64,000 bases of DNA, taken from NCBI GenBank assembly GCA_964036195.1, contig OZ038455.1:12975855-13039854 (forward strand). The letters are read 5' to 3'. The notes beneath the pieces were generated by a model. The model did not search any database. It was given only the letters and a program-made list of their open reading frames with translations, and was not told the DNA's origin. Position numbers and translations under genes: made by a program. The stretch is from Sphaerolaimus hirsutus (Eukaryota; Nematoda; Chromadorea; Monhysterida; Sphaerolaimidae). Below are positions 1,215 through 42,999 of this stretch, one piece after another (the first letter of the stretch is position 1; every line of letters begins with the position of its first letter).

Positions 1215-1494
1215 TTACAAATTCGTCGTCACACTACCCCCTCTCAACCTACGCCTGCCCCACGCCTTGCCGCCGCCCGTGGCGCCTTCCCGCGGCTCCT
1301 GGTCTGGCGGCAGGGCGACGGCACTCTTGCGCCGTTTCTTGCGCTGCGCCGCCGCCGCACCGCCGACTGCCGCCGGCGGTTCGCAGCAGCAGCACAGCGA
1401 CGCGAAGAGTTTGCGCAGAGCGACGCGAAATTGGGCGGACATGCCGCACAGGATGACGAATTTGAGCGGGTAGGTGGCCACGATGAATAGGTTC
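1215..1494 (-). CDS. SPR-like GPCR exon 11 (TM7 and C-tail, stop)
   Basis: It encodes NLFIVATYPLKFVILCGMS, then AQFRVALRKLF and a CCCC cluster. A basic, alanine/glycine-rich tail of about 55 residues ends GGSVTTNL and TAA at 1217-1215. The acceptor is GCCGTCCAG. The YPxxF...CGMSxQFR ending is the strongest family marker in the gene. Confidence 0.95.
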
Positions 1495-4400
1495 CTGGAC
1501 GGCGGTATGAGTGGAGTTGTGTATTAATTTGAATTGGGTGATGAAGCATTGGGTGAGCAGTGGGAATTCATATGTTGGAAAGATGAGTTGACAAAATAAA
1601 TCATAAACGAAAGGATTGTCAGTTGTCGCATTGGAATGGCAACATTTACTGTGTAGAGTATCGAAAAATATATGAAAAGTCTGGTAAAAGTACAATCAAC
1701 TATAGGGTTCAAACGATATGACTTTTCGATATCGATATTCGATATTCGATATTTTTTTCTGAAACTCGATATTCGATATCGATACGATATGGAACCTCGA
1801 TATCGATATTCGATATTCGATATTGAAAAATGGTCGATATTCGATATTTCGATATTTTCGATATTCGATATTGCGATTTGCTTTTGGTATAGCAAGGCAT
1901 ATTTCAAGTGGCATATTGTATTTTCATGTGGTTGCACACATGGTTAATCATCTCTTTACTGAAATGTGAATGTTACATGTGATTTAAAAAGGTTTACATC
2001 AGTCAAAAGTAGAACATGGAAGAAAAACATGATGAACCAAAGTGTATCAGACAAATAACAATTGGTAGATATTACAGTTCATACTTATAACCTAATTGCT
2101 TAATGGCATGTTGCAAAAAATAGCATATCAGCATTTTCTAGCTCCAAATTTAGCACTCCAACAAAAATAACATTATAAATACTGTACTTTTACTCATCAG
2201 ATACAATACTATAAGCAAATCAGATCAATCATAAATATGTCAAAATGAAAATGATAACTTAATTTAGGGACACAATACAGGTTCGATATATCGAAAAAAT
2301 GGTCGATATTCGATATCGATATTCGATATTTTTTCAAAATTTTCGATATCGATATTCGATATTCGATATGAAAAAATGGTCGATATCCGATATTCGATAT
2401 TCGATACGATATATCGTTTGAACCCTAATCAACTACATGATTTTCACTATTATGTTCAAATAAAACTTTTTACAAAAAATGAATATTTGCATGTGCAGAT
2501 AGAAATTTTTATGCCAGTTGGAATTTTGGTTTGCAGAAAATTTTATGTGAATCAAAATTCTACTTTCACCCAGAAATCGAAACTTAAATGCAAATCGAAA
2601 TCATCATCTACAAATTAATTTCTTTTGTGTGAGTTATTTCCAAATTTTTACACGAACCAGAAAACAAAACCTTAAAGTTTTCCCCCAAAACACACCTAAA
2701 AATAATAGTGACATTAGCCGTGTGGAACATGGTCGCATTCTTGCAGCTATCGCAGAACTGCGGCAGCGCGAACATTACGATGAGCGCGCAGGCGACTAGT
2801 TCAGTGGCGGTGAACACGGCTATGACGGCGATCAGCATCCTGGGGGCAGTCTCAGACCCTGTAAAAGACCCTGTAAAACGTAAAAGACACTGTAACGTGT
2901 CGAATGTCATGTATTTAAAAGACTATGTTCCATGTGTGTCCAAATTTTATTGTATATTATTATATTTGTATACGATACAAGATTTGGATACTCTTAGGGT
3001 TGGAAAAAATCTATTTTTTTAAACTACCTTGATTTTAAAAAAATAATTGATTTTTTAAATTAAAATCAGATTTTTTTAAAAATCGTCCAAAATGGGGGTA
3101 TAGAGAAAAAATTATGTATGTTAAGTGTCAGACAATATATTGTTATCTATTGTGGTCATATTATGACTGTGGAGTCATGGAATGGCATTATAAGCACTGA
3201 TTTCTTTCAAAAATATCCATTTTACGTTGACTTATTACGTATATCGCCTTTTGTCGAACGTTCGTGACTTCAAGTGAAGTTCAGCATGGAATAGTGCTTA
3301 AATAAGGTTGTAACTGTAAGAGAAGGCTAATACATTGACAGTGATGTTACACACTGTAGAATTATGTGGGAGCACATCGGTTTGATATTATATACTACAC
3401 TAGCATATCACGTCTTATTATTACATGGTAACATGAATAAATGGAAGACTTTACACTAAAAATGCCCCAAAACCCATGAAAACATCACAAATGATAATAT
3501 GTATGAGAAATTGCGCACTTCCGCGCAAAAAATGCAAAATACCTAGTGTAAGTCTACCAGAAATTTTGCCTGTTGATTTTTTCAAATTAAAATCAGTTTC
3601 CACCCTTTGATAAAAAAAAATCAGATTCAAAAAATCAAGTGCCAACCCTAATACTCATGACACTTTACAGGGTCTTTTACATGATGCCTGACACTTTACA
3701 GAGTTTTTTACATAACACATGACATTTTACAGCATCTTTTACACTTTACAGGATCTTTTACAGTGTTTGGAACTGGCACCTGGTGGCGGCCACGGCCGAA
3801 CTGTGCCCACTGGAGTGCGACCGGTCCAGCGTGCGCTGCCCGCTTGGAGTGCTCAAAGATACCTGGCCGGTGGGCGGGGCTTGATTGCGTTGCGTTTATA
3901 GTACGCAGTGCGGTTTGGAATTTTGCCAAGATTTGCGCGCTCGTTTTTGTGCAGCAAATGTAGAGTTTATTGGGAATTTCCACTTATTAATAGAGATTTC
4001 GTGCCAATATTCGCTCAAATTGACGGAGTTTAGCACTGAGCTTCAACGGCAAGATCTATATATAAACACCTTCCCGGTCACGTCCGGCACCCTATTTTTG
4101 ATCTTACTTGTGACTAGGGTTCAAACGGGATTGACTTTTCGGGATCGGGATCGGGATCGGGATTCACTTTTTGAGATTTCGGGATCGGGATCGGGATCGG
4201 GATTGGGGTTTCGGGATCGGGATCGGGATCGGGATTGGTTTTTTGAGATTTCGGGATCGGGATCGGGATCGGGATTGGCCGGGATTGGGGTCACGGGATC
4301 GGGATCGGGATTGGGATAGGCATTTTTCCGGGATCGGGATTGGGTTCTAGGGATAGAGATTTTGGCCATTTTTCTGGCATTCACAGTTGTTCATAAAGGT

Positions 4401-7400
4401 CTCAAAACACTGTTGGATGCCAGAAAAGTGGCATAAAATTGACGCTGGGGGTTTGCATCCACTTTTTTGCATGCAAAAACGTCATTATTTCACTTTTTAT
4501 AATTCCCACTAATTTTTCCGGGATCGGGATCCCGGACTTGGGAGTTTCTCGGGATCGGGATCGGGATTTGAAAACTTTCGGGATCGGGATCGGGATCGGG
4601 ATTGGTATTTTTGAGATTTCGGGATCGGGATCGGGATCGGGATTGGGGTTTCGGGATCGGGATCGGGATCGGGACTGGTAAATCCCGGAATTTCACGGGA
4701 TCCGGGATCGGGATCGGGATCCCGTTTGAACCCTACTTGTGACACCCTATTTCCAGTTCTGGGGCGCGCCAGAAGCTGAAACTTGGGGGAGATATTGGCA
4801 CAACCCCCCTCTACTTTGCATGAATTTGGGGGTCGCGGCGACCCCTCTGAGGGTGGGTCGCCCTCAGTGCAAAAATTTTTCTTGGCTTTTTTGGTGTCCC
4901 ACAGCAGGTCCGGCAGCCGCTGATTTCTGAGCTGTGGGAGGGCCATAAATCTAAAATTTTGGGGATGTGTTACCAACACCACTCCCCTACTATACACTAC
5001 TTAATAATGTGAGATAAATGTGAAAAAGTTCTAAAAAATTCTCTTATTCTCTAAAAAAACACCACTCCCCAATAGATGGATGGCAAAAAATTTACTTTTT
5101 GGAACTTTTTTATTAGACACTTGCAGAGCTGGTTTACGATACTTTAAAGGGAACAGTTTGATGTTTAAAGTTATGTAGAGAACCATACCTCTAAAATGTA
5201 TGCATTGCAAAATTTACTTGGGGGAATTTCAAAGTGTAAATTTTGTAAATTTTTGTTCCTGCAATGATGTCATTATGATGTCACAAAATTCGCCCTAAGT
5301 AAATTTTGTAATGCAGGCATTTTAGAGGTATGGTTCTTTACAAAACTTTTAACATCAAACCGTTCCCTTTAAAGTATCGTAAACCATCTCTTCAAGTAAT
5401 AAAAAAGTTCTAAAAAATGAATTTTTTGTCATCCATCTATTGGGGAGTGGTGTTTTTTAGAGAGTAAGCGAATTTTTAGAAATTTTTCACATTTCTCTCA
5501 CATTATTGAATAGTGTATAGTAGGGGAGTGGTGTAGGTAACACATCTTCAAAATTTTAGATTTATACCCCTCCCACAGCTCAGAAATCAGCAGGTGCCGG
5601 ACCTTCTGTGGGACACCAAAAAAGCCAAAAAATTTTTGCACTTATGGCGACCCACCCTGAGAGGGGTCGCCGCGACCCCCCAAATTCATGCGAAGTAGAG
5701 GGGGGTTGCGCCAATATCTCCCCCAAGTTTCAGCCTCTGGGGTGCCCTAGAACTGGGGAGAGGATGTAAGAAGTAAAATCAAAAAATGGGTGCCGGACGT
5801 GACGGGAAGGTGTTTATGAGTTTTCACTGCTAAAATAACAATGGAAAAAGGCAGCTCAACTGACAGTCCTGCCAACTTCGCGGCCCTTTTCATCGGCGCA
5901 CATTGAATTCGCATCAGTCAGCTGCAAACTAGCGGCGTCATTGATTGCTATCGCGCCGCCAACAGACAAACTGGCGCTGGCGGTAGTAGAAGTACTTCGC
6001 TTGCCAGCATAACTGCCCGGCCCCGCCCCCGTGGGTGACAAATTGCAATTAGGGGAAGTCCCAATCCCTGTCAAGTGTAAAGTAAAGTGTCAAATGTAAA
6101 GTAAAGTGTCAATAGTGTACCCAAATATCATTTTTCGTATCCAAATCTTATGTATTTGTATCCAAATGTTATGTCGAAAAATAAGATTTGGATACACAAT
6201 CAGGGACGTATCCAGGATTTTTGAGCGGGGGGGGCTGCTTGTTTACGGCGGCCGGCGAGGGGGGGGGGCTCAGCCCCCCCCCCCCTAAAATTTTCGCTAA
6301 ATAGTGGCGGAATGGCGCTATGGCGCTGGCGCCATTAGTAGGCGCCACGCCATGGCGCTATTGGCGTTGGCGTCAGCGCCATGGAACGCTGTATATGTAT
6401 GTAAATATACATACAAAACAGCAAAAAGCACAACATTGAGTGTATTTACAACGATTTGCGGCCACATGGAGCAAATCAGATGATAATACCTTTATGTATG
6501 GTGAAGAATGCGCGCTTGCGCGCAAAATTTTTTACGCTGACGTTGAAAAAGTCGCATTTTCCGGTCACTTTCTGGTCTCGCCCCGGGAGGGGGGGGGCTG
6601 CAGCCCCCCCCGCCCCCCCCCTGGATACGGCCCTGTACACAATTGACACTTTACATTTGTATTTACATATGACACTTATCATGACAATTGACATTTGACA
6701 ATGCATTTGATTTGACATTTGACACGTTGCATGACATTTGACATTTGACTTTGCATTTGACTTCACATCTGACACTTTACTTTACACTTTACAGGGCTTG
6801 GGACTGCCACCAGTAGTGTTATGCGGAGGCAGAGTGTTCAGCTGGGTGGGCGGAGCCAGCCCGTTGTTGTGCTGCTGCACCTCTATGGAGGGTAAGTCGC
6901 GCATTGACGGGCACGGTGTAGATGCTATTAGGAATTTATCTGCTGAAGGGTCTTGAGGCGGCTCGTACACGCGGCGGGCTGCGTTGCGAGGGGGGGGGGG
7001 GGGGTGGGGTGGGCATGGATATCGATTAAGTCCCCTCGAAAAACTCCCCCTGTTAGCCGACTGAGAAAAAATCTCCCCCCCCCTCGAAAAACTGCGCTAT
7101 TTGATGGGTGGGAATAACACCTATAAATAAAAACCTTTATAGGTATGTGTGTGTTCTATAAAATAATGTATCCTTTTCCAGCCTATGTTCACTAGCATTG
7201 ATTTCATTGCATGAATAATGGCACTTGCATGAATCATGGAGTAACTTGCAGGCGTGTGCACTTATTTAACCCAATTCACACAATATATTGATCATACATT
7301 TTACCTCGTTATAGCTCCTCTCGATTAACTCCCCAGTCAAAAAAGTCCGACAAAAAATATCTCGTCCGGGCATTATTCGAGGATATACGGTAGTCGCAAA

Positions 7401-10400
7401 AACTTTCCACTCACCGCCCTGTGTCCTGGCTCTCCTTTGCCGCCAGCGTTTCTCGTGCATCCTCACAGTGCCGGCGAGTCTCCACGTGAAGTAGACGAGC
7501 AGGCCGCACGGCACCACGTGCATCAGACTGGCTCTGGGGGCAGTCCCAGACCCTGTAAAATGCCCTGTAAAATGTCAAATGTCATGCAAAGTGTCAAAAG
7601 TCATGTAAAATGTCCTGCAAAATGGCAACTCTGTTGCCATTTTGCAGGACATTTTCCATGACTTTTGACACTTTGCAGGACTTTTTCAATGACTTTTGAC
7701 ACTTTGAATGACATTAGACATATCACAGGACATTTTACAGTGTCTGGGATTGGCACCTGGTCCAAAAGAGCCCGTTCCACACGATGTCCTTGCCAAGTGT
7801 GGCTACCCAGGCGGCGTGCTGCCAGACGCACGCGTGTTCCAACTTGGCCACGGCGGGCGACAGGTAGGGCAGCGACCACGGAGGCACTGCGAGGTGGGGT
7901 GGAGGAGGTTTGAGTAGTTGCGAGTAGTGCTACGAAGATGGTAATTTTTGGGAGATATAATCGAATAAAAAAATCTCTCGGAAATAAAATATTATAGAAT
8001 CTCTCTTGGAAAACCCCGAAAAATACAAATACCTATAATCTTTTTGAGAGCTCTTTTTGATTATTTAAAAAATCTCATAAAATCTCTGATATAGAAAATA
8101 TAACTCAACCTATCTGACAAATTCTGGAAAAATAAAAAAATTCTTATACTTTCTAATATAAATTTCCTAGCGATTTTTGCAACGCTATTTGCAAGTGCGA
8201 CTGCGAGCTTTGAAACTTTATCAATTTTCGCATTTTGGTATATTTGACATGTCAAAACTGATGTGCCGGAAAGGCCTATGCTCAAATAAAACAAGCCAAA
8301 CAACAGCCAAATCAAACCGACCATCCACAAGGAAATAACTAGAATCTAGCATGCCGGGCAGCTCGTACAGCACGCAAACAACGCACACGATGGCCAACGT
8401 GATGCTGGTGGCTTTAGCACTGCATAATCGGGCGACTTTGGTGAACTTGCAGATGTAGATGTAACGTTGCGCTGCTAGGAACACCTGTGGTGGGTTCGCG
8501 TTACATCGAGCGTATCGCTTAAATATGTATGAGGCCTCTTAAACATTATATACTTCTAGAAGTCGATAACTCCAAAATTGCGAAAATTGTGTTATTATAA
8601 ACGTGGAAACGAGGTCTACCCAAATAGTAATCTTTTCGCACTCGTTTCACATATCAAAAATTTTTTTCAATGCACTCGTCCCATTCTAAAGTTTGTGATA
8701 AGTCAATGTGGGACATCGAACATGTTATAAAAGTCGATTAGTGGATTAATTGCTCATAGGTCAAATTTATTGGACTTAAGTACACATATTCAATAAACTT
8801 CGTCCTATGCTTTTTTTCTTCCTGTATCAATGCATTTTGTACATGTATGTTGAAAGCAGAGTTGCGAAAGTGTATTTACACTTAGGTACCCGAAATAAAC
8901 TGGTGGTACATATAAATGGAAAATTGACTACATAAATTTTCGAAATATTCTCATGTGCAAACGATCAGCCCAATCTCGCTAAAATTTTGTGTTAATATGG
9001 GGCCAACATTTATTCACATTGTCCCCAAATGGCACCCCCCAGCACCCCTCTGGTCAGCCGTGACAGCCTTCTATATATTTTTTACGATTTTTTTTGTAGC
9101 AAATATAATTGGAAAATTTCGGAATCCCACACAGAATATTGCTGCGGGAAAGCTCGCTGCCATTTTTTGGCATGCTGCCAACACAAGCAATGGATACACT
9201 TGTGCTGGCAGTTTTTTGATGAAAAAAATCACAAATGGCTTGCTCAGAGCCGCACATAGGTTGCAGGGGTTATTTTGGGTTAGGGGTATTTTGACCACCT
9301 GCTGTTACCCCACTGCTGCTGCCCCACAAAAATCCATCCCAAATTGCAGATATCAGCCACCTCATAACATTCAAACATATTGAGAACTTTATAACTGCAA
9401 ACATTTTGATTGTGATTGCAAAAACCACAAATTTACACTTTCTGGGAATGACCTCTTCATCTGTCTGGTCCATTTACACAAAATACAGGACACATTGCCA
9501 GTTGGTCCCTGGTATATGTTTAACAGATAATTGTTTTCTGAATTCAATCGGCACCAGCATTTAATTATTTGCATCCAGATGCTGCAGAGGCTGGTCACGC
9601 TTTTATGGAAATGCTGTCTTAGAACAGTGGTATTTTCACTGATGGCCATAAATGCAGACTTTGTGCAACAATGTGGTGCAGGACCAGTCACATGTTGCTC
9701 ATGACACTTAGGAAGCCAGTCCTGGCCACCATGTGCTGTATGATAAGCCTGGGGCTGTGTAAGACACATTAGTTCCAATATGTTTTGTTCAAAAATTTTT
9801 TCAGGTTTGACCTTCAGCAAAATTTTGGTGGGGATTGTGTGGGTTGTGAGGGGGTGGAAAAGTTGCAGGAAGTTACCATCTCATATGTCAAGAAGAACCA
9901 GTGGCCTAAACCATCCCCAACCAATTTTATAAATAAATCAAATTTCGGCCTGAGCAAAAATTTGTATGGATTTTCCATTTATATTTGCCAGAATAAAAAC
10001 ACAACAAAAAATATTTGAGGAGGTGCCCTCTTGGGTATATATAGTAGATACTTGGGGGCACCCTCACACAAGATGACAGCCTGACAGCTTGCATGTGGGC
10101 TTTTTAAAACATGGTTTTGTCCGGGTAAATGGGTATTTATATTTACCCTTACACTTACACTTTCAAAAAAAACCCCAGTACACTTTTTTACACTTTCCTG
10201 GGCAAAATACCCGGATACAGAAAGTGTATTTTTTTCTTTCAGATGGCCCTGTTCTAAGCATTTGAGGAAGCATAAAACAGGGTCATGTACAAAAAATAAC
10301 TGCACAGTGCACACATGCAGTTATGCATTGAATGTAGAAAATATGGCAAATGTACAAACGTGCACCAGCTCCAACCTTTCATCAGTACTCATGGTATTCT

Positions 10401-12412
10401 ACAGTTTCATCATACTTTGTAAAAAGGACAAGATCAATGGAAATTCACCTGCTGGACACTGGCTTTTGCATTGACATTATTGCTTTATGTCCATTCTTGT
10501 ATTTTATTTAAACAGTGTGTATCACATTGCTTAATCAGTAAAAAATCAACACTGAAAATGTGCCATTTGCCCCACACACGCTAGGTGACATCGACACCTA
10601 ATGTCAACTGGTTCCGTTCCTAATTCAAAGATTGCATTTGGACGTCGTTCGTTCACTCGTCAGCAAGCTTTGAATCGGGATCGGCACCAGTTGACATTTG
10701 GTGTTGATGTCAACTAGCGTGTGTGGGCCCATCATCACGCAACTTCATACCACTAAATTTGTTACAGTCTGAAACGGCTGTTCATACAGCAGTAAAATGT
10801 GAAATAATGCATGAAAATGATAAATAAATTGATTTCTGATGCTCAACAGTGAGAGCTCTTTCTAAAATTTTTTTTTACACTTACACTTTTTTTTACACTT
10901 TCCTAGGTATTTTAAAAATACCTTACGCTTACAGTATCCATACTCAAAATTTGGAAAGTGTATTTACACTTACACTTTCCAAAAATACCGGTATTTTAAC
11001 AACTCTAGTCGAAAGCAGTGTCAAAAAAACTGACACTTTAAAAAACAAAGCGCCAGGGCTTCTAACCGTGAACCAAATGGCCATATTATGAAACACGGAG
11101 GGCAGCGATTGCGAAAATACTCGATGCCAAGGGCACCAGAACTGCCCAATGTCCGTGTCGGTGTGGTGCGACAAGCCGAAAGTGTAGTATGTAATGAACC
11201 AGGGAAGACTGCTCGCACCTGAAAGGAGTAGGTACCTTTGGTGGTATTTACTGTGTGTGTACTTGTGATGAGAAAGCGTTGGAGAAATGGCCGTAATCGG
11301 AGCGAGAAAAAGATGTCAGATGTCAAAATTGAATATAACAGTAATTTATAAGCGTCTAAAGACATAGGTATTTAAATACTATGTATACTACCTTATATAA
11401 TATAATATAAGTATATAGACACTATGTATACTACCTAATATAATATTTATTTACAATTCATTCATTGTTTTTCACATGCGTTCTGTCTTCTCATTAAAAC
11501 CTAAACACTCAATTCGGGTGGGTTCACTTTAACCTGTGGTTATTTCGAGATATGTCAATTCAAGGGCCGGAAATTTATTCGAGGAAATACGGTACATGTT
11601 TGCAAAAACAAAATTATTACATCCGACTGGATGGGCTTAAACAAGACTCATAAATACAAGTAGTTTTGTAATTGGCAAAGTAAAGTGCATGCAACCCTGG
11701 CAAGGCAATTTTCCGACGAATCAAAAAGCCGTTCCCTTTCAAAAGCCCACCCAGTTTAACAAACCAGTGAAAAACTCGGCTAGCGACATGGCCAAAAGCA
11801 CCGCATTTGTGCATGTTCTCATTTCCTTTCTAGTCAGCACGGCGACAATGAGTAAATTGGTGGCGGTAGCGAGCGCGAGCATAGCCGGCACGAAATAGCC
11901 ATAGATCGGTTCCGCGTAGACTCTCGGCTGGGTGGCGCTGATGTTTACCAGACTGTAGCGTAAAAGTCTGAGCAGTTGCATTCTGCGCACGAGAATGTCG
12001 GGCGCGGCGCTCGACGCGGCCATCGAGCTGGGGGGCAATTCCAGACCCTGTGAAATGCCATGTAAAATGTCAAATGTCATGCAAAGTGTCAAAGTCATGT
12101 AAAATGTACAATATCATGCACAGTGTCAAAGTAATGTGAAATGCCCTGAAAAATGTCAAAAGTCATGTAAAATGCCCTGTAAAATGACAACCGTTTTGCC
12201 ATTTTGCAGGTCATTTCACATGACTTTTGACACTTTGCACGACATTTGACATTTTGCAGGGCATTTAACAGGGTCTGGGACTGGCACCTGTACAGCGGCT
12301 CGGTGCCGTTCGCGTCGGCGACGTCCGCGTGCACGGGCATTTCGGGGCTGGTGGCCAGCGTGTCGCCCGGCCACGATGGTAAATGAGAGTATTCTGTGCC
12401 GTTGGTGAACAT
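1215..12412 (-). CDS. SPR-like: SPR-type (sex peptide / myoinhibitory peptide receptor-like) GPCR, 11 exons
   Basis: Predicted seven-helix class A neuropeptide receptor of the plasma membrane. Exons in order are 12288-12412, 11765-12027, 11067-11218, 8322-8484, 7757-7886, 7415-7533, 6811-6978, 5865-6067, 3780-3862, 2696-2839 and 1215-1494. They total 1830 bases, and all ten junction phases agree. The N-terminus has three N-glycosylation sequons (N4, N35, N70). TM1 starts near YGYFVP (84-89), followed by MRTCTNAVLLAMS. QRY at 186-188 replaces DRY, as in SPR. Cysteines 158 and 254 fit the TM3-ECL2 disulfide. TM5 has HVVPC, TM6 has MLIAVIAVF and TM7 ends TYPLKF...CGMSAQFR, close to the YPINF...YCGMSRQFR I recall for insect SPR. 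A CCCC tail (551-554) is a likely palmitoylation site. Loop 3 is about 160 residues, far longer than usual. The start ATG is chosen by frame; a 5' exon further upstream is possible because an acceptor-like site lies at 12431. Confidence 0.9.
1703..2427. mobile_element. hAT-like MITE, CGATATT array (in SPR intron 10)
   Basis: TIR TAGGGTTCAAACGATAT with its complement at the far end, flanked by a perfect 8-bp duplication ATCAACTA (1695-1702, 2428-2435). Arrays of ATTCGATATCGAT lie at both ends, with an array-free middle (about 1880-2280). Confidence 0.9.
2696..2839 (-). CDS. SPR-like GPCR exon 10 (TM6, loop 3, start of TM7)
   Basis: The acceptor CTGCCCCCAG is the right end of an introner. The exon encodes RMLIAVIAVFTATELVACAL, then FCDSCKNATMFHTANVTII. 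It ends in phase 2 at TTTAG/GTGTGT. Confidence 0.9.
2840..3779 (-). mobile_element. Introner 4: intron 9, interrupted by another transposon
   Basis: Donor GTGCCAGTTCCAAACACTG and acceptor GAGACTGCCCCCAG mark the two ends. Arms carry repeated TTTACAGGGTCTTTTACA units. A separate TAGGGTTGG element (2995-3650) has inserted near the middle. The flanks keep CCAGGT (donor side) and CCAGGA (acceptor side), consistent with a 6-bp target duplication. Confidence 0.86.
2995..3650. mobile_element. TAGGGTTGG-family element inside introner 4
   Basis: It starts TAGGGTTGGAAAAAATC and ends CAAGTGCCAACCCTA. Both flanks share ATACTC, an imperfect target duplication. The ends are A/T-rich arrays around AAAATCAGATTTTTT, with a conserved middle also seen in the copies at 44739-45436, 45442-46854 and 58806-62857 (a TGAAAACAACCACCAATG-like stretch followed by CGCGCAAA). 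Confidence 0.75.
3780..3862 (-). CDS. SPR-like GPCR exon 9 (third intracellular loop, part 3)
   Basis: It encodes VSLSTPSGQRTLDRSHSSGH, then SSAVAAT, with several potential phosphorylation serines. The acceptor is CACCGGCCAG. It ends in phase 2 at CACCAG/GTGCCAGTTCC, an introner end. This is the only frame that joins to TM6. Confidence 0.75.
4073..5816. mobile_element. Long hairpin element AAACACCTTCCCGG (SPR intron 8)
   Basis: Inverted ends read AAACACCTTCCCGGTCACG and CGTGACGGGAAGGTGTTT. Most of the interior from 4740 to 5760 is also near-perfectly self-complementary (for example 4820-4860 against 5640-5690). It contains the hAT-like insertion 4115-4735. A related copy lies at 20628-22303. 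Confidence 0.8.
4115..4735. mobile_element. hAT-like MITE, GGGATC array
   Basis: TIR TAGGGTTCAAACGGGAT, perfect 8-bp duplication CTTGTGAC (4107-4114, 4736-4743). Two GGGATC arrays flank a unique core (about 4340-4515). It sits inside the hairpin element 4073-5816. Confidence 0.93.
5865..6067 (-). CDS. SPR-like GPCR exon 8 (third intracellular loop, part 2)
   Basis: It encodes GIGTSPNCNLSPTG, then KRSTSTTASASLSVGG and CADEKGREVGRT. It is low complexity but open and in phase on both sides. The acceptor ACAG/GG lies inside the introner arm, so the first residues (GIGTSP) appear to be encoded by the transposon end. The donor is ACT/GTCAGT. If this donor were skipped, a stop would follow after two codons. 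Confidence 0.7.
6068..6810 (-). mobile_element. Introner 3: intron 7, interrupted by another transposon
   Basis: Minus-strand start GTGGCAGTCCCAAGCCCTG and arrays of AAAGTCAAATGTCAAATG match the introner family. The other arm ends ACAGGGATTGGGACTTCCCC. Here the used acceptor is the AG inside ACAGGG, so part of the arm is exonic. A CAGGG-type hAT-like element (6201-6635) is inserted within it. Confidence 0.82.
6201..6635. mobile_element. hAT-like MITE, CAGGGACGTATCCAGG family
   Basis: It starts CAGGGACGTATCCAGG and ends CCTGGATACGGCCCTG, with perfect 8-bp duplication TACACAAT (6193-6200, 6636-6643). The interior has G- and C-runs and a TGGCGCTATGGCGC-like palindromic array (6303-6385). Confidence 0.88.
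6811..6978 (-). CDS. SPR-like GPCR exon 7 (third intracellular loop, part 1)
   Basis: A polypyrimidine run (the G-run at 6991-7004 on the plus strand) precedes acceptor AACGCAG. The exon encodes RRVYEPPQDPSADKFLIAS and PTQLNTLPPHNTT, hydrophilic and disordered in appearance. Phases agree on both sides. It ends in an introner donor, ACTG/GTGGCAGTCCC. Confidence 0.8.
6990..7395. repeat. Relic of CCGTATT/CTCGAATAA repeat in SPR intron 6
   Basis: A G/C-homopolymer stretch (6991-7010), TCCCCCCCCCTCGAAAAAC motifs, and one end matching ATTATTCGAGGATATACGG (7372-7390). Only one recognisable TIR remains. Confidence 0.5.
7415..7533 (-). CDS. SPR-like GPCR exon 6 (TM5)
   Basis: It encodes RASLMHVVPCGLLVYFTW, then RLAGTVRMHEKRWRQRR, a textbook TM5 with HVxPC followed by a basic start of loop 3. 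The acceptor CTGCCCCCAG belongs to an introner. The donor GGCG/GTGAGT is consensus. Confidence 0.92.
7534..7756 (-). mobile_element. Introner 2: intron 5 of the SPR-like gene
   Basis: The cleanest copy, 223 bp from donor GTGCCAATCCC to acceptor CTGCCCCCAG. The centre GCAAAATGGCAAC-TCT-GTTGCCATTTTGC (7617-7645) is a perfect hairpin tip. Each arm repeats a unit like ATGTCAAAAGTCATG. It lies exactly between TM5 and loop-2 codons in phase 2. Confidence 0.92.
7757..7886 (-). CDS. SPR-like GPCR exon 5 (extracellular loop 2)
   Basis: This exon encodes PPWSLPYLSPAVAKLEHACV and ends at NGLFWT. It carries the conserved loop-2 cysteine. The acceptor is CACCTCGCAG. It ends in phase 2 at ACCAG/GTGCCAATCCC, the left end of the 223-bp introner. 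Confidence 0.88.
8322..8484 (-). CDS. SPR-like GPCR exon 4 (end TM3, TM4)
   Basis: It encodes VFLAAQRYIYICKFTKVARLC, so the DRY box reads QRY, then the TM4 stretch ITLAIVCVVCVLYELPG and LDSSYF. The acceptor is CCACCACAG. The donor GATG/GTCGGT is weak but is the one that keeps phase with exon 5. Confidence 0.88.
8990..10130. repeat. Interspersed repeat, copy 1 of 3
   Basis: It shares several blocks with 30460-31720 and 33290-33880: the CCATTTATATTTGCCAG motif, a TATATATAGTA block next to TTGGGGGCACCCTCAC, and GCTTGCATGTGGG. On the minus strand it encodes TAHGGQDWLPKCHEQH (about 9700-9760), similar to translations of the other copies. No complete protein is recognisable. Confidence 0.6.
10569..10729. 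mobile_element. Short MITE with GTTGACATC/CACACACGCTAG ends
   Basis: Inverted ends CCCACACACGCTAGGTGACA and its counterpart at 10710-10729. Related ends occur at 53458-53578 and as a single end near 58485-58510, so it is a dispersed family. Confidence 0.7.
11067..11218 (-). CDS. SPR-like GPCR exon 3 (end TM2, loop, TM3)
   Basis: The acceptor is TACTCCTTTCAG. It encodes ASSLPWFITYYTFGL, then FWCPWHRVFSQSLPSVFHN and AIWFT. This matches the SPR pattern of PAPWYFYMYT followed by the TM3 cysteine and the FHxxxIW stretch. It ends in phase 0 at ACG/GTTAGA. Confidence 0.92.
11765..12027 (-). CDS. SPR-like GPCR exon 2 (TM1, loop 1, start of TM2)
   Basis: This exon starts after a CCCCCCAG acceptor inside an introner end and reads through YGYFVPAMLALATATN (TM1), LTRKEMRTCTNAVLLAMS and LAEFFT (TM2). 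It ends in phase 1 at ACTG/GTTTGT. The MRTxTN motif after TM1 is a hallmark of the SPR/myosuppressin-receptor group. Confidence 0.93.
12028..12287 (-). mobile_element. Introner 1: intron 1 of the SPR-like gene
   Basis: The whole 260-bp intron is an inverted-repeat element. Read on the minus strand it starts GTGCCAGTCCCAGACCCTG and ends CAGGGTCTGGAATTGCCCCC then CAG. Between them are arrays of TGTAAAATGTCAAATGTCAT-like units, mirrored around a centre near 12190. Donor and acceptor are at the element boundaries. There is no other intron sequence. Confidence 0.88.
12288..12412 (-). CDS. SPR-like GPCR exon 1 (extracellular N-terminus)
   Basis: It encodes MFTNGTEYSHLPSW and on to NGTEPLY, an extracellular tail with two N-glycosylation sequons. 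ATG at 12412-12410 has A at -3. It ends in phase 2 at a CAG/GTGCCAG donor, which is the end of an introner. In-frame codons run upstream to a CGCAG acceptor-like site at 12431, so the exon may be longer or preceded by a 5' exon. Confidence 0.75.
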
Positions 12413-12430
12413 GGTCCACGCGCAGTCACG

Positions 12431-13652
12431 CTGCGAATGTGGGAAAATATTGCATGCGATTTTTGAGAGGTTGATATTTTTATCAAATGTTGTTGCGAAT
12501 GTAGAAAACGCGAATGTGTTTCCAATGCAATTTAAGCAGACAAATGTTTAGATTGCGAAAATGCATTCACGAAAACACCGAAATTGAGCGCAGAAACTCA
12601 TTGAGTTGTTTTACACAGGAACACAGAAACTCGCAAATTTTGAAAAACTCGAAACTGAAATGAGTTTTTTTTGAGAACACGAAATACAGAAAATACAGAA
12701 AAGTTTGTTTTGTAGAGTTTTTTCATCAAATCAATTGAAGGACTATGACTACAGTTGTACTAAAACATACGATATGTGCATAAGGCATGCATGTATGTAC
12801 ATATAATATGTTCTTAATGTATCCAAATTTTATGATGGAATATTTGTCCAACCAAACATAAAAAATTAAAAGATGGCATCTAACTCTCCTGCTGGTTTTG
12901 ACTCTACAGGGGTTGGAATTGCCCCCTGGTGACCATGATGATTTTTGCAGACATTTTCACTAATGTGAGCAGCTTACCAGCTTGTGCAACCCCAGAAAAG
13001 GCATAGGCATATATAGGCTTTTTCAAGGTTAAAAAGGCAGAAAGGGGAAAAAATCGCTAATAATCAGTTAAAAGTAGCCAAAAGTAGGTATAATATGGCT
13101 GAAAATAGGGATATAACGTTGTTTATAGCCGGAAAGCACGATTTTGAAGGTGAACAACTATAAAAAGGTGCGAAAATTAGTGATTATGAGCGAAAATTGG
13201 GGCAAAATTTCTCAAAAACGACTCCAGATAGATAGATAGCTGAGCGATTAAGGGGAGGGGGGTCTTTGGGGGTAGTAGCCAAAAATTTTGCCTCGGGATA
13301 GATAGATAGCTGAGCGGCCTCCGGGATAGATATTTATATAGCTGAGCGGCCTCCGGGATAGATAGATAGCTGGCCGATTTGGGCCCTAGGAGACCCCTGC
13401 TTTTGGGACAGGTAAGTAGTTCAGATACCCTGAAGGCTTCAATGGATAGGTACATGTTCAACTATAGTTGCAGTTCAAATCAATTTCGTAATCTCCCATA
13501 CAGTGCACTACAATCCATCAAAGAATTTTGGAGTACTTCATAAATTGTAATTTGTGCGACATTTTGTTTATGCTGATGTTGTGGTGCAGATATGCTCATT
13601 GTGGAAATTTTTGAGGAGTTTTTGACACTTGAAAATATATGCACATCTTAAG
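12431..13652. other. Gene-free stretch 5' of the SPR-like gene
   Basis: It holds the possible promoter/5' UTR side of the receptor gene, the solo introner end at 12904 and a truncated GATAGATAGCTGAGCG repeat (about 13225-13400). No TATA box or exon could be supported. Confidence 0.5.
12904..12930 (+). mobile_element. Solo introner end (relic)
   Basis: CTACAGGGGTTGGAATTGCC followed by CCCTGG resembles the acceptor-side end of the SPR introners. No partner end was found nearby, so it is probably a remnant. Confidence 0.4.
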
Positions 13653-18335: not shown

Positions 18336-19490
18336 GGGTTTGGGGTCGGGGCAACTTTTTTTGTTTTCTCGAATAATCCCCTAGTCCCGAGATAAGGGGG
18401 GTCCATAAACATGGTCATTATACATGGCCGAACCGGTCGATCGACTTTGAAGGTTATTAACTCGGCCATTTCTGGGCCGATTTGCACCGTTCAACACTTA
18501 AAATGATCGGCACTACCTGTAGATTCCATTTTGTAGGTCGTATTAGTGATGTCTAAATTCCGTATGCCGATTTTACCCGGTTTTTCAACACAAAAAAAAT
18601 AAATTTTCTGAACATGCTATCATATACACTAGACAACGAGGATTCATATAAAACAAATATGAGTTTAATATCTATTTCCAATCAAAAGTTATGGAGCTTC
18701 AAACATTTCCCTCCTATCCACATAAATAACTGCATAAAGAAAATTCAAAACTCCATATTTCGACCATTTCTTAACCAATTTTAACCGATGATATCTTAAA
18801 ATGATCAGAATAACATGGAGATATCGTTTTTATTCACAGTTTATTTGTGTTTTTATTCACAGTTTATTCATTATGATAATTTCATGCAAGAGTTCGCATT
18901 ATTTTAATGTATGGAAAATATAATGGAATATACAGATGATATGAAAATAAAAATGAAATCTCCATGTCATTCTGATCATTTTAACTGTTCATTGGGTAAA
19001 ATCGGCTGAGAAATGGTCGAGATATGAAGTTTTGAATTTGTATGCATCGTTCTGTATGTGGTTGGTTATTTATGTGGATAGGAGGGAAATGTATGAAGCG
19101 CCATAACTTTTGATTGGAAAGAGATATTAAACTCATTTTTGTTTTATATGAATCCTCGTTGTCTAATGTATATGATAGCATGTTCAGAAAATTTATTTTT
19201 TTTTGTGTTGAAAAACCGGTAAAATCGGCATACGGAATTTAGACATTACTAACACGACCTACAAAATGGAATCTACAGGCCGTGCCGATCATTTTAAGTG
19301 TTATGGCCGAGTCATTAACCTTCAAATGGCCGGAGATCAGAAATGGCCGAATTATTAACCTTCAAAGTCGATCGACCGGATCGGCCATGTAAAAATGACC
19401 ATGTTTTTATAGACCCCCCTTATCTCTGGACTGGGGGATTATTCGAGAAAACAAAAATTTTTCGGTCGTTGCCCTGACCCCAAACCCCAA
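18336..19490. mobile_element. Long hairpin element, TTGGGGTTTGGGGTC ends
   Basis: It begins TTGGGGTTTGGGGTCGGGGC and ends with the complement CCCTGACCCCAAACCCCAA. Arms of about 500 bp are near mirror images (CCGGTCGATCGACTTTGAAG near 18431, its complement near 19360). A one-ended partial copy lies at about 42515-42760. Confidence 0.8.
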
Positions 19491-20627: not shown

Positions 20628-22303
20628 ACACCTTCCTGGTCAGGTCCGGCACCCTATTTTTGATTTCACTTTTGGGCCCTAACTCCCGCTGTAGGGGAAG
20701 TAGACAGCTGAAAATGCGTGGGTATATAGTTAAAACCCCGCTCTATACTGCATCAACGGGGGAGGCCACAGCGACTCAATACAGGTTGGGTTGCCATATG
20801 CAAGTTTTTTTTGGCTTTTTCAGTGTCCCACACAGGTCTGGCACCCACTTGATTCCAGCTGTGGGGGTACTTGAGGGCTGCAATTTGGGGGAAGTGTGGA
20901 CAGAACCCACCCCTACTATAACCCAGCAGGGCGGCCTCTGGCAACTCACTACAATACCACTCGCTGCATTTCAATTTCGTTTTGTTTCTCTCAATAATCA
21001 AATTTCCCATGCACTTTTGTAGCAGAAAAATGGTTAGTTCAACATTTATTAACGTTTTTGTGGGATAATTTTCACTATTTGAATTTTTTAATAAATGCTA
21101 TTGTTCCAATCCAGATCCTGTGGCCACAATTCTAATCCCTATCCCCAACCCATCAGTCTCAATTCCAATCCCCATCACAACCCCATGGCCACAATTCTGA
21201 TCCTGATCCATAGCCCATGGCCACAATTCCGATCCTGATCCCTAGCCCATGGCCACAATTCCCATCCAAATATGGAAGAAAACCTTCATGTTTCAACTCC
21301 AGTTGATGTGTATTTTTTTTGGCTAGGAACTGAGGAACTTTGTGGTACACCCACCACCCTCACAAAAGTGTCACACAAAAATTGACTTTTAGTAACTTTT
21401 TTGCTAGATACTTGAAAAGTTTATTTATGGTGACTTGTAGGGGAGGCTTCAAGGTTTAATGTTGTGTAAACAACATAACCTCTCAAACACCTCGTTTACC
21501 AAATTTACTTGGGGTACATTTAATGACAACATAATGACGTCATCGTGGGAACAAAATGTGGCAAAAACATAACTTTCAAATTTGCCCAAAGTAAATTTGA
21601 CAAGGGAAGCATTTTAGAGGGTATGTTTTTTACACAAAATTAAACATGTAACCATCTCCTGTAAGTCACCATAAATCAACTTTTCAGGTCTCTGACAAAA
21701 AAGTTGTTAAAGTTAATTTTTTTGTGTGACATGTTAAGGAGCAGTGCGGGTGTACCACACCGCACTGGTCTGGAAAAATCGCTAAAAATGGATAGATAGC
21801 TGAGCGATTTGGAGACCCTGATGCATACCAATTGATCCTCCAAAAAATTCACTTCATGGGTGTTGTTTGAACTTTTTTAAACACAAATGGTTGCCGGACC
21901 GGAACTGGAACATTCTATTTTATTGAACGAAATTGGCCGGTACTGTAGTGAGTCGCCAAAGGTCGCCCTGCTGAGGTATAGTAGGGTTGGGTGTTATCTA
22001 CACTCGCCCAAAACTTCAGCTGTCTACCATCCCCACAGTTGGAGGTACAGCATCCGCAGTGTCAAAAAATCAAGCGGGTGCCGGATCTGTGCGGGACACT
22101 GAAAAAGCCAAAAAAACTTTGCATATTTATGCAGCGACCCACCCTGTAGTGAATCGCCGTGGCCTCCCCCATTGCTGCGACGTATAGGGGGGTTACAGGT
22201 ATATACACACGCGTTTTCATCTTCCTACTCCACCCACAGTGAAAGTTCGGGCACCCGAAGTGACATCAAAAACAGGGTGCCGGACCTGACCCGGAAGGTG
22301 TTT
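20628..22303. mobile_element. Long hairpin element AAACACCTTCC, copy 2
   Basis: Ends CTAAACACCTTCCTGGTC and GACCCGGAAGGTGTTTA. Interior arms mirror each other and share blocks with 4073-5816 (GTGTCCCACACAGGTC..., the TTTTTTGGCTTTTTCAGTG block). A CCCATGGCCACAATTCCGAT tandem (21120-21265) lies inside. Confidence 0.78.
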
Positions 22304-22432
22304 ACAAGTTTAACACATGTATGGTTGAATCAGACAAACACAGATCACTGTGGGGCTTGGGCTGAAATGAACTGAAGTCTCAAACCAAGCCAACTACTCC
22401 AGCTCTCAAACACAAGAGAAAGCAGCCACAAC

Positions 22433-22978
22433 TAGGGTTCAAACGGGATTGACTTTTCGGGATCGGGATCGGGATTCACTTTTTGAGATTTCGGGATCGG
22501 GATCGGGATTGGGGTTTCGGGATCGGGATTGGTTTTTTGAGATTTCGGGATCGGGATTGGCCGGGATTGGGGTCACGGGATCGGGATCGGGATTGGGATT
22601 GGCATTTTTCCGGGATCGGGATTGGGTTCTAGGGATAGAGATTTTGGCCATTTTTCTGCCATTCACAGTTGTTCATAAAGGTCTCATACACTGTTGGATG
22701 CCAGAAAAGTGGCATAAAATTGACACTGGGGGTTTGCATCCACTTTTTTGCATGCAAAAACGTCATTATTTCACGTTTTATAATTTCACTAATTTTTCCG
22801 GGATCGGGATCCCGGACTTGGGAGTTTCTCGGGATCGGGATTTGAAAATTTTCGGGATCGGGATTGGTATTTTTAGATTTCGGGATCGGGATGGGGGTTT
22901 CGGGATCGGGATCGGGACTGGTAAATCCCGGATTTTCACGGGATCCGGGATCGGGATCGGGATCCCGTTTGAACCCTA
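22433..22978. mobile_element. hAT-like MITE, GGGATC array (short-array copy)
   Basis: Same TIR and core as 4115-4735 with perfect 8-bp duplication GCCACAAC (22425-22432, 22979-22986). Its GGGATC arrays hold fewer units, so copies differ mainly in array length. Confidence 0.93.
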
Positions 22979-23169
22979 GCCACAACACAACACAACATTC
23001 ATCCAACTAGCCAACCTGACTTTCATAAACTAGCTAGGGAGGAAAATACCCACCACTGACCACACAATCACAAACATCAACATTGAACCAACAGTGGACA
23101 ACAAAGCAATTCATTTCAAATTGGAATGTGACAAAATGGTAAACTAGGCCAAATACAAAATGACCAGGT

Positions 23170-23373
23170 GCCAGTTCAGCAAATTGAGAAGCGAGAAGTG
23201 GAATGGCAAATGAGAAGTGGACTGAGAAGAAAATTGGCAAAAGCGAAGTAAAAAATAAAAATAAAAGTAATTTCATTTCGCTTTTGCCAATTTCCTTCTC
23301 AATTCACTTCTCACTTCCCATTTCACGTCGCATTTGCCATTTTACTTTTAACTTCTCAATTTGTGAAACTGGC
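23170..23373 (+). mobile_element. Introner relative (GAAGTG-array type), diverged
   Basis: It starts after CCAGGT with GCCAGTTCAGCAAATTGAG and ends CTCAATTTGTGAAACTGGC. The interior is a mirrored array of GAGAAGTGGAATGGCAAA-like units. The right flank no longer shows the duplication. No exon is recognised around it. Confidence 0.65.
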
Positions 23374-23852
23374 CTATGAAATAGGTATAAATAGGATTGG
23401 CATGTTTGACCAATTTTTTGTGCATTTCTTCTAGGCATGCTGCCAACTGTGCCTATTATTGGATGTTTACCTATTTATGTTGATCGGAGCAGACCGATAT
23501 TCTAATAAACGACTGCCGTCAACTAAATTTTCATTTGGACATCGGGAAACGAGCTATCGTAAAAGAGTCAGTATTCATTTATTGATAAATGCAGAGGAAT
23601 ATTAGCATTATGAAACACGATCTGACATGTCTGCTGATGTACTCTAATGTGATTAATATTACCGTATTTCCTCGAAATACACCGATGGGGGTCTCTTATT
23701 TCGCTAGCAGCATAGTATAAACTGTTTTCGTCAAGTACAAAAAATGTGACATGAGGTGAAAAATGATACTGGAACTGATTTCTCAAGTTCATTTTGACCA
23801 GGTGAAAGGTCATATAAAGATGCATAATTTCTAGAATTTTCCTTGTTTGAAA

Positions 23853-25930: not shown

Positions 25931-26698
25931 CCCAGTGCACATTTAAACCCAGTGCACATCTTAACCCGGTGATCAAGGGGCAAGTACATATCCAGGATTT
26001 TTGAAGGGGTGGCTGTTTGTTTAACCAGCCCTGTGAATGGGGGAGAGCTCAGCGCTCAGCCCCCTCCTGAAATTGTACCTACATGGTGACGGAATGGTGT
26101 CATGGTTGCTGCCGCCATTGGTGTTGGTGCCAAAGATCGCTGATATGTATGTTTATATAAGTACACATAGAGTGACAGGCATGCCATTCATTTGTATTTT
26201 ATAAAGAATTGACAGTACAAGTAAACTTAATTGGGAAAATTTACTTATAATATATCAGTGTGATGGAAAAATGTTGGAAAACGGGCCTACAGGTGCACCC
26301 TGTTTACATGTGCACCGGGTCTACATGTGCACCGGCACAGGGGCAAAATTTATGTCATATTTTATTATTAAAGGAACGCGTGGAACGCTAAGTAAATATA
26401 TTGAGTGTTATTTTTAGCGCGGAAATATCAAAACGCTACCTAGCAGCTAGGCACCCTGTCTCGTATTTGATCGATGTGCCTTCCGTTAAAGGGGTAAAAA
26501 TAAAGTGACTGGTGAGCCGTGAAACCTGCCGCTGGTCCATTGACCAACATCCCTTTCAGAAACAAATTTCCTTTAGAGACTTGAAAAAACAGGAGACCAG
26601 ACTCAAAGGGGGTGGTCTTCACTTGAAAATGACAGTTATTTGGTATGTATGATTCCACATTGGTCAGTCAAACATGCGATATCTCACGTTTGTACTTA

Positions 26699-27357: not shown

Positions 27358-27680
27358 AAATAAACAGGGTGCACGCCAGGTCCGCCACCCAAATTCTGAG
27401 TCGGTGCCGGACGCCATATCTCCAGTTGTAGTGGGGGGATTTATTCGAAATTTTGAGGGCATATACTCGAAACCCACCCACTACTATATACGGGCTGGGG
27501 AAGGTCGGCGACCCACACTCAGGTGGGTCGCCGACCTTCCCCAGCCCGTGTATAGTAGTGGGTGGGTTTCGAGTATATGCCCACAAAATTTCGAATAAAT
27601 CCCCCCACTACAACTGGAGAAATGGCGTCTGGCACCGACTCAGAATTTGGGTGGCGGACCTGGCGTGCACCCTGTTTATT
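27358..27680. mobile_element. Perfect hairpin element, AATAAACAGGGTGCACGCC ends
   Basis: About 320 bp, almost wholly self-complementary around 27515. Ends AATAAACAGGGTGCACGCC and GGCGTGCACCCTGTTTATT. A block inside (GTGGGTCGCCGACC) makes the tip. Confidence 0.82.
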
Positions 27681-36918: not shown

Positions 36919-37370
36919 CAAGGACGTATCCAGGGGGGCGGGGGGCTGCAGCCCCCCCCCCCCTCGTTCCCGGGTGAGACCGGAAAATTTCGAGGAAAAT
37001 GCAGTTTCCGGTGCGAATTTCCAAGTTATTGTGTAAAAATTTTGCGCAAGAGCGCGCATTTTTCCGCCGTACGGCATTATAAATATAATTATTTATCTGA
37101 AAATCAGCATGTTTACACGCAAATCACTGTAAAATACTTTGAATTTTATGCCTATCTCTTTATATGTATGTATATTACGTACACATTAGCTATTTTTGGC
37201 GCCAACGCCAACGCCAATGGCGCCAACCAATGGCGCCAGCGCCATGGCACCATTTAGTCACTATTTAGGTCAAAAATTTAGGGAGGGGGGGGGGGCTGAG
37301 CCCCCCGTCCCGTTCGCCGGCGTCCGTAGACAAGCGGCCACCCCGCTTCAAAATCCTGGATACATCCCTG
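36919..37370. mobile_element. hAT-like MITE, CAGGGACGTATCCAGG family, copy 2
   Basis: It runs from CAAGGACGTATCCAGG to CCTGGATACATCCCTG with duplication CTATATAT/CTACATAT (7 of 8). It shares the GGCGCCAACGCCAA array and G-runs with 6201-6635. Single-ended fragments lie at 25985 and 50043. Confidence 0.82.
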
Positions 37371-42235: not shown

Positions 42236-42281
42236 TATCTCTGGAAAGATGGGAATACAAAAAACATGTTTAAATACCTGG

Positions 42282-42494
42282 GGCCAGTTCCGCAAAATGA
42301 GAAGTGAGAAGTGAAATGGCATAGGCGAAGTAAAAGCGCAAATGCGAAGTGAAACGGTAAGCGAATTGGCAAAAGCAAAGTAAAAAAATAAAAAGTAATT
42401 TCTCTTCACTTTCGCCATTTCACTTGCCAATTCACTTGCCGTTTCACTTCGCCTTTGCCATTTCACTTCTCACTTCTCATTTTGCAGAACTGGC
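42282..42494 (-). mobile_element. Introner relative outside known genes, with intact CCAGGT duplication
   Basis: The ends are the same as in the SPR introners: minus-strand GCCAGTTCTGCAAAATGAG and its complement ending GAACTGGC. The interior array is different, with repeated GAAGTGAAATGGC-type units. Flanking ACCTGG on the plus strand (42276-42281 and 42495-42500), that is CCAGGT on the minus strand, is duplicated. GT of one copy and AG of the other would make a donor and acceptor. It sits in a copy of the repeat seen near 18530, not in an exon. Confidence 0.75.
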
Positions 42495-42999
42495 ACCTGG
42501 TCACATACGGCATAACAAATTTAGACACCACTAATCGGACCTAAAAATGGACTCTACAGATCGTCCTAATCATTTAAAGCGTTGAATGGTCCAAATCGGC
42601 CCAGAAATGGCCGAGTTATTGAGCTTCAATCAATTGGCCAGATTTGCCATGTAAAATGCATGTGTTTTTATCGAGCCCGTTTATCTCGGAACAGGGGGGT
42701 TATTTGGAGAAAAATTTGATATTGGTAGTAGCCCCAACCTAGACATATGTACTGGTACAACATCAAAATTTGGTAAGGTATCTATCCCGGAGGCCGCTCA
42801 GCTATCTATCTATCCATAGGCAAATTGTTTGGTTATCTATCCCCCAAATCGCTCAGCTATCCATTCATGTGGAGCAAATTTTGAGCGATTTTTCCCAAAC
42901 TTTCAACCAAAATCGCTAGTTTTTGTAGCATAATATTTTGCAAATATTCACCTTCAAAATCGTCATTTTCGGCTACCGTATTACCTCGAATTAACCTCC

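Follow-up and report, generated by a model that had tools for sequence, protein, structure and literature searches.

The birth of introns is a long-standing question. Introners have been recorded in 175 of 3,325 genomes, the animals among them belonging to two groups only in the accessible part of the survey (Gozashti et al., 2022, PMC9860276), and the same part describes both fungal introner-like families that have neither inverted repeats nor target duplications and a class of introners that carry one splice site of their own and obtain the other from the duplication, as in Chrysochromulina, where the 5' site is the element's own, the 3' site is co-opted and the duplication is 4 bp long. Remnants of PIF/Harbinger transposons are described in recently gained fungal introns (PMC8476143, in the sections available). 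NuwaI, a member of the PHIS superfamily, is reported in the available text of Han et al. (2015, PMC4482050) from 16 animal genomes, and from animals only, with CWG target duplications and ends that are usually GGG. Of 297 introns in Eurytemora affinis, 36 start at a GA or GG donor that follows an obligate exonic AG, and these introns are unique to this copepod (Robertson, 2017, PMC5714493).

The locus compared with these systems here is a class A GPCR gene on the minus strand at 1215–12430 of the window (the whole stretch of 64,000 nucleotides of Sphaerolaimus hirsutus DNA that was analyzed). Judging from the DNA itself, it is likely that introns 1, 5, 7 and 9 of this gene are introners, i.e., copies of a non-autonomous, hairpin-forming cut-and-paste DNA transposon that inserted into exons and would be removed by the spliceosome. 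The initial annotation had already read them as introners, and this reading stands as the best explanation in view of the flush ends, the related elements with the same terminal bases outside the gene and the 3-bp duplications; the in-frame joining of the exons on which it had also relied is by itself no proof of splicing, since the frame is regained whenever a transposon is taken out together with one copy of its target.

Exon boundaries were drawn manually, guided by open frames and splice signals, and the exons were joined by script, which gives 11 coding exons separated by 10 introns (introns 4 and 8 have hand-picked, tentative donors) and a single open frame of 583 codons plus a stop. In coding order, exons 1–4 lie at 12288–12430, 11765–12027, 11067–11218 and 8322–8484, exons 5–8 at 7757–7886, 7415–7533, 6811–6882 and 5865–6067, and exons 9–11 at 3780–3862, 2696–2839 and 1215–1494. 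The Pfam profile 7tm_1 matches residues 106–484 of the 583-residue product over profile positions 4–241 of 260 (E 8.7e-16), and 7TM_GPCR_Srw matches with an E of 5.3e-12, confirming the earlier statement that the exons join in frame to a recognizable GPCR, putatively of the sex-peptide-receptor (SPR-like) type. Class A GPCR matches in a search of solved structures were weak (10 sequences, best E 0.0019). On division of the protein at the intron 5 junction, its first part matches 7tm_1 over positions 4–122 with 35.9 bits and its second part over the next stretch, 161–241, with 22.3 bits, the latter being below the Pfam cut-off of 30.5. Introns 5, 7 and 9 interrupt the 7tm_1-matched region (at residues 284, 347 and 443) and intron 1 (residue 48) lies outside it, exon 1 being assigned from its open frame, its start codon and a GC3 of 0.83. 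Across the gene, GC3 is 0.54–0.86 in the exons vs. 31–46% GC in the introns. Scans of the window returned no Rfam match at gathering and no ARAGORN gene. GC-rich, exon-like open frames are also present at 58522–58785 (minus strand) and 62907–63608 and may belong to a second gene, with no Pfam match for the frame 62907–63476.

Introns 1 (12028–12287, 260 bp), 5 (7534–7756, 223 bp), 7 (6068–6810, 743 bp as modeled) and 9 (2840–3779, 940 bp), all on the minus strand, begin in coding order with GTGCCAGTCC, GTGCCAATCC, GTGGCAGTCC and GTGCCAGTTC, respectively, and their far ends are approximate reverse complements of these starts, the two arms of each being 86, 85, 86 and 77% identical over the first 60 nt or so. 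Introns 1, 5 and 9 end in CCCCAG and intron 7 in an inner ACAG; interior units of 12, 19 and 31 nt are common to all four, and an inverted-repeat search returned ungapped, tandemly built arms of 55–100 bp. The shared start with near-complementary ends, the three CCCCAG endings with an inner AG in the fourth, and the statement that the introns of 260 and 223 bp are made of the element only had all been noted in the initial annotation, and each holds under the exon/intron model used here. What it had called copies of a single transposon are indeed one family, but a family of diverged members: an alignment of introns 1 and 5 over 222 positions shows 85% identity, and the arms of intron 7 or 9 resemble those of another intron at 63–85%.

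Introns 1 and 5 are each a single hairpin element, flanked by CAG at 12288–12290 and 12028–12030 in intron 1, which we read as a target duplication with a one-base slip (there is an additional C within the right end), and by the CAG duplication at 7757–7759 and 7534–7536 in intron 5. The computed fold of each is virtually one hairpin, with −129.0 kcal/mol and a z of −13.2 for intron 1 and −138.4 kcal/mol and a z of −16.6 for intron 5 (0 of 200 shuffles as stable in either case). As RNA, these long, near-perfect hairpins could be substrates of Dicer or ADAR. The element of intron 9 has its CAG duplication at 3780–3782 and 2840–2842. The splice sites coincide with the element ends at both sides in introns 1, 5 and 9, and at the donor in intron 7.

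This coincidence has to be weighed against the possibility that the elements entered introns that already existed and came to agree with the splice sites only secondarily. That introns of this gene take up repeats is seen in introns 7 and 9, which hold other, later ones: nested in the element of intron 7 is a repeat at 6201–6635 with relatives at 36919–37370 and 25986–26122, and the element of intron 9 contains one or more at 2995–3652 with several relatives in the window, the best of them 90% alike at 62648–62857. However, in pre-existing introns the elements would have had to come to lie flush at both ends three times independently, introns 1 and 5 hold not a base beyond the element and its duplication, and the long inverted repeats at 4734–5775 (intron 8) and 10571–10727 (intron 3), in introns of the same gene, are not flush with splice sites. 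We consider later entry quite unlikely and favor insertion into exons. Since the hairpins of introns 7 and 9 are interrupted by repeats with relatives elsewhere in the window, these two introns probably grew after they had formed.

A paired-end scan of the window was run with a 12-nt end pattern, arms matching at no fewer than 18 of 30 positions and a spacing of 120–1500 bp, with 30 first-order Markov sequences as the control. At up to one mismatch it gave 5 pairs against a mean of 0.0 in the Markov sequences, comprising the four introns and the far end of intron 1 paired with a lone end at 12925; two mismatches gave 9 pairs against 0.17, and three gave 49 against 4.4, many of them from unrelated repeats. 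The two-mismatch pairs at 21156–22605 and 62526–62933 were dropped, their flanks being unmatched and their interiors other repeats. Arrays of GGGATCGGGATCGGGATT-type units occur on both strands at 4126–4728, 22463–22916, 43997–44545, 59232–59659 and 61561–62016 and are apparently parts of a recurring repeat, and long inverted repeats lie at 18493–19302 and 27359–27680, the arms of the latter being separated by 6 nt and 97% complementary over 158 bp.

The inventory of the window is four introns, two related elements and one lone end. The related elements, which we call family B, share only about 10 terminal bases with the introner elements and were found both by the end pattern and, without it, as inverted repeats. 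One of them, at 42281–42496 on the minus strand and outside the coding exons, has the same terminal 10 bases around a different interior, with CAG on both sides at 42497–42499 and 42278–42280; it would be competent for splicing when read on the minus strand and may be an intron of an unseen untranslated exon. The second, at 23168–23375 on the plus strand, has CAG on its left and ATG on its right, and its duplication is not intact. The lone end, of the GGGG type, lies at 12906–12925 on the minus strand just upstream of exon 1, flanked by CAG; its partner was not found, and it may be a truncated copy or a chance occurrence. Pattern scans of collections without animal genomes gave 1, 0 and 0 matches in viral contigs and 0 in genome contigs, and the lone 19-nt viral match (L001), with no second arm visible in the 1001 of 4061 bases read, is probably a chance occurrence.

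The thirteen element ends available for comparison comprise 8 in the four introns, 4 in the two related elements and the lone end at 12925. All six full-length elements have GTG at one end and GGG or AGG at the other, and over all thirteen, GGG is found at 6 of the 7 ends of one type while the remaining 6 are GTG. Directly outside these ends, CWG (CAG or CTG) is present at 10 of 13, or at 11 if intron 1 is counted with its one-base slip, with CWG making up 0.0255 of the trinucleotides of the window. The ends that miss it even then belong to intron 7 and to 23168–23375, whose right flanks (TTA, or CTA/TAG if shifted, and ATG, respectively) differ from their left flanks. CAG stands on both sides of four of the six full-length elements, i.e., introns 1 (with the slip), 5 and 9 and 42281–42496. 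Splicing by itself would favor AG on either side of an intron, so that CAG next to the four introns does not count as independent evidence and the informative flanks are those of the five ends outside these introns; 4 of these 5 are CWG, and there splicing cannot explain the flank. Duplications of 2, 4 and 8 bp were also checked by eye on the flanks, and CAG alone recurred. A search for inverted repeats between identical 3-bp flanks, run without an end pattern, returned 5 pairs, of which one (42281) has CWG. It showed no CWG enrichment, had too little power and, at its stringency, missed all four introns.

The same ends and flanks are relevant to a third mode of origin, the RNA-borne copying of introns by reverse splicing that has been proposed for fungal introner-like elements, which would also produce copies flush with splice sites and restore the mRNA exactly. 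In the part of the account available (PMC9860276), neither inverted repeats nor target duplications occur in the fungal families, while both are present here; furthermore, CAG borders both ends of the related element at 42281–42496, which lies outside the coding exons, and the element at 23168–23375 has a CAG flank with no acceptor AG. Copying through RNA is in our estimation most unlikely, and we infer transposition at the DNA level.

The element of intron 7 (6053–6810, minus strand) differs from the others in that it appears to have landed on CTG, which forms its left flank at 6811–6813, with the right copy read as CTA at 6050–6052. Its end has no terminal AG and lies 15 nt beyond the modeled acceptor, and these 15 nt and the 3 nt of the target copy, together 6050–6067, would be kept in exon 8 as the six codons G-I-G-T-S-P. 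A CTG/CTA duplication implies an empty site that reads in frame without a stop, relative to which the modeled exon has exactly 18 nt more; TAA was dropped as the duplication in favor of CTA, the TAA frame having two stops, which means that the choice was partly set by its outcome, and a multiple of three has a 1 in 3 chance. The kept sequence would be understood if insertion at CTG creates no terminal AG: splicing would then fall back on an AG further inside the end repeat, leaving 18 nt in frame in the exon. This is comparable with the 12 bp that Aureococcus introners add to the transcript according to the available part of PMC9860276.

All four copies within the gene are in the GT-AG (sense) orientation, for which our own arithmetic gives a chance of 1 in 16. 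The donor GTGCCA is weak beyond its GT. If intron 1, 5, 7 or 9 were retained, the reading frame would run into a stop 64, 7, 9 or 7 codons beyond the junction, respectively. The arms within each copy differ by 14–23%, yet the 583-codon frame is intact, and in a simulation of neutral decay (0.1 indels per substitution, 1000 copies per divergence level) 158, 48, 7 and 0 of 1000 frames were undamaged at 1, 2, 3 and 5% divergence. This age argument is soft, since the arms may have differed from each other before insertion, which makes the real age uncertain. It seems likely from the GT-AG ends, the stops on retention, the shared sense orientation, the GC3 contrast and the intact frame beside old-looking copies that the four introns are spliced.

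These observations also speak to the possibility that the gene is a decayed pseudogene with unspliced transposon insertions, its frame being restored trivially on their removal. In-frame rejoining is what any insertion with a target duplication would give. Against this stand the 583 stop-free codons with their exon GC3 well apart from the GC of the introns, the orientation of all four copies and the old appearance of copies that sit beside an undamaged frame, and we hold a decayed gene to be very unlikely.

The introners described in the accessible part of PMC9860276 resemble these introns in the similarity of copies up to both splice boundaries, the inverted ends, the target duplications and the restoration of the mRNA. 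The Chrysochromulina family has no inverted repeats in that account, whereas here they are present together with a 3-bp, CWG-specific duplication in an animal host. Amoebophrya introner elements are likewise hairpin introns with direct repeats of 3–5 nt overlapping the boundaries, but they belong to a dinoflagellate parasite and have inverted repeats of 8–20 nt, noncanonical splice sites and, in the sections available, no constant family ends (PMC7789003). With NuwaI, as described in the available text of PMC4482050, the element shares the CWG target duplication and an animal host. One of its ends is mostly GGG, as NuwaI ends usually are, and the other is GTG; its arms are long and built of short tandem units, and introns are not mentioned in that text. 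The inverted ends of NuwaI are 12–61 bp long, and the ungapped, tandemly built arms here measure 55–100 bp. Mobilization of NuwaI depends on a Nuwa-type DDE transposase together with a Myb/SANT partner. Kinship with NuwaI, one of the animal relatives of PIF/Harbinger, is on these features plausible and in our judgment somewhat better than an even guess, and it goes no further than plausible because a transposase was not found among the 10 ORFs of the window searched in Pfam. The Eurytemora introns are lineage-specific introns of receptor genes with an exonic AG before the donor, as a CAG-targeting element would leave it; the donors there are GA or GG as opposed to GT here, and no transposon is named in that work (PMC5714493). 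As a guess, GG-ended relatives of the element could give rise to introns of the Eurytemora type. The principle that one splice site is carried and the other comes from the duplication is known, while the family, the CWG route and the fit to NuwaI were not met with in the open-licence literature, where no paper linking NuwaI or CWG duplications to introners was found; this absence is weak, as subscription papers were mostly outside the scope of the search.

The proposed sequence of events, the order of which we infer, starts with insertion of the element into an exon at CAG with a 3-bp CWG target duplication, which would give the arrangement CAG-GTG...CCCC-CAG. The upstream target CAG would become the exon side of the donor and the GTG of the element would supply the donor GT, while the CCCC end would provide pyrimidines and the duplicated downstream CAG the acceptor AG. 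The initial annotation's description of the element as splice-ready is therefore apt for the donor GT and the run of C that it brings, and has to be amended for the acceptor AG, which is the duplicated target. Splicing of a copy at CAG would restore the old mRNA exactly; insertion in the reverse orientation or at a CTG target would yield no terminal AG, and the reverse orientation no GT either. Such an intron would be a hairpin of about 220–260 bp at birth and, as introns 7 and 9 suggest, later nested repeats would turn it into an ordinary longer intron.

A wider proposal, which we put forward tentatively and consider possible rather than probable, is that a CWG-targeting transposon akin to Harbinger became an animal intron factory through about one G-to-T change (GGG to GTG), the insertion itself making the AG for both splice sites. 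Unmutated, GG-ended relatives would then produce introns with GG directly after CAG, which could explain the GG donors of Eurytemora, and the letter of the target would decide between exact splicing (CAG) and the use of an inner acceptor (CTG). The accompanying prediction, that a CTG target leaves a copy unable to splice at its terminal acceptor, is matched once, by intron 7. If the proposal is real, it amounts to an unusually simple recipe for an intron, consisting of a preference for CAG targets and a single base in one end of a transposon, and the four introns of this receptor gene would show the stepwise conversion of a transposon into an intron.
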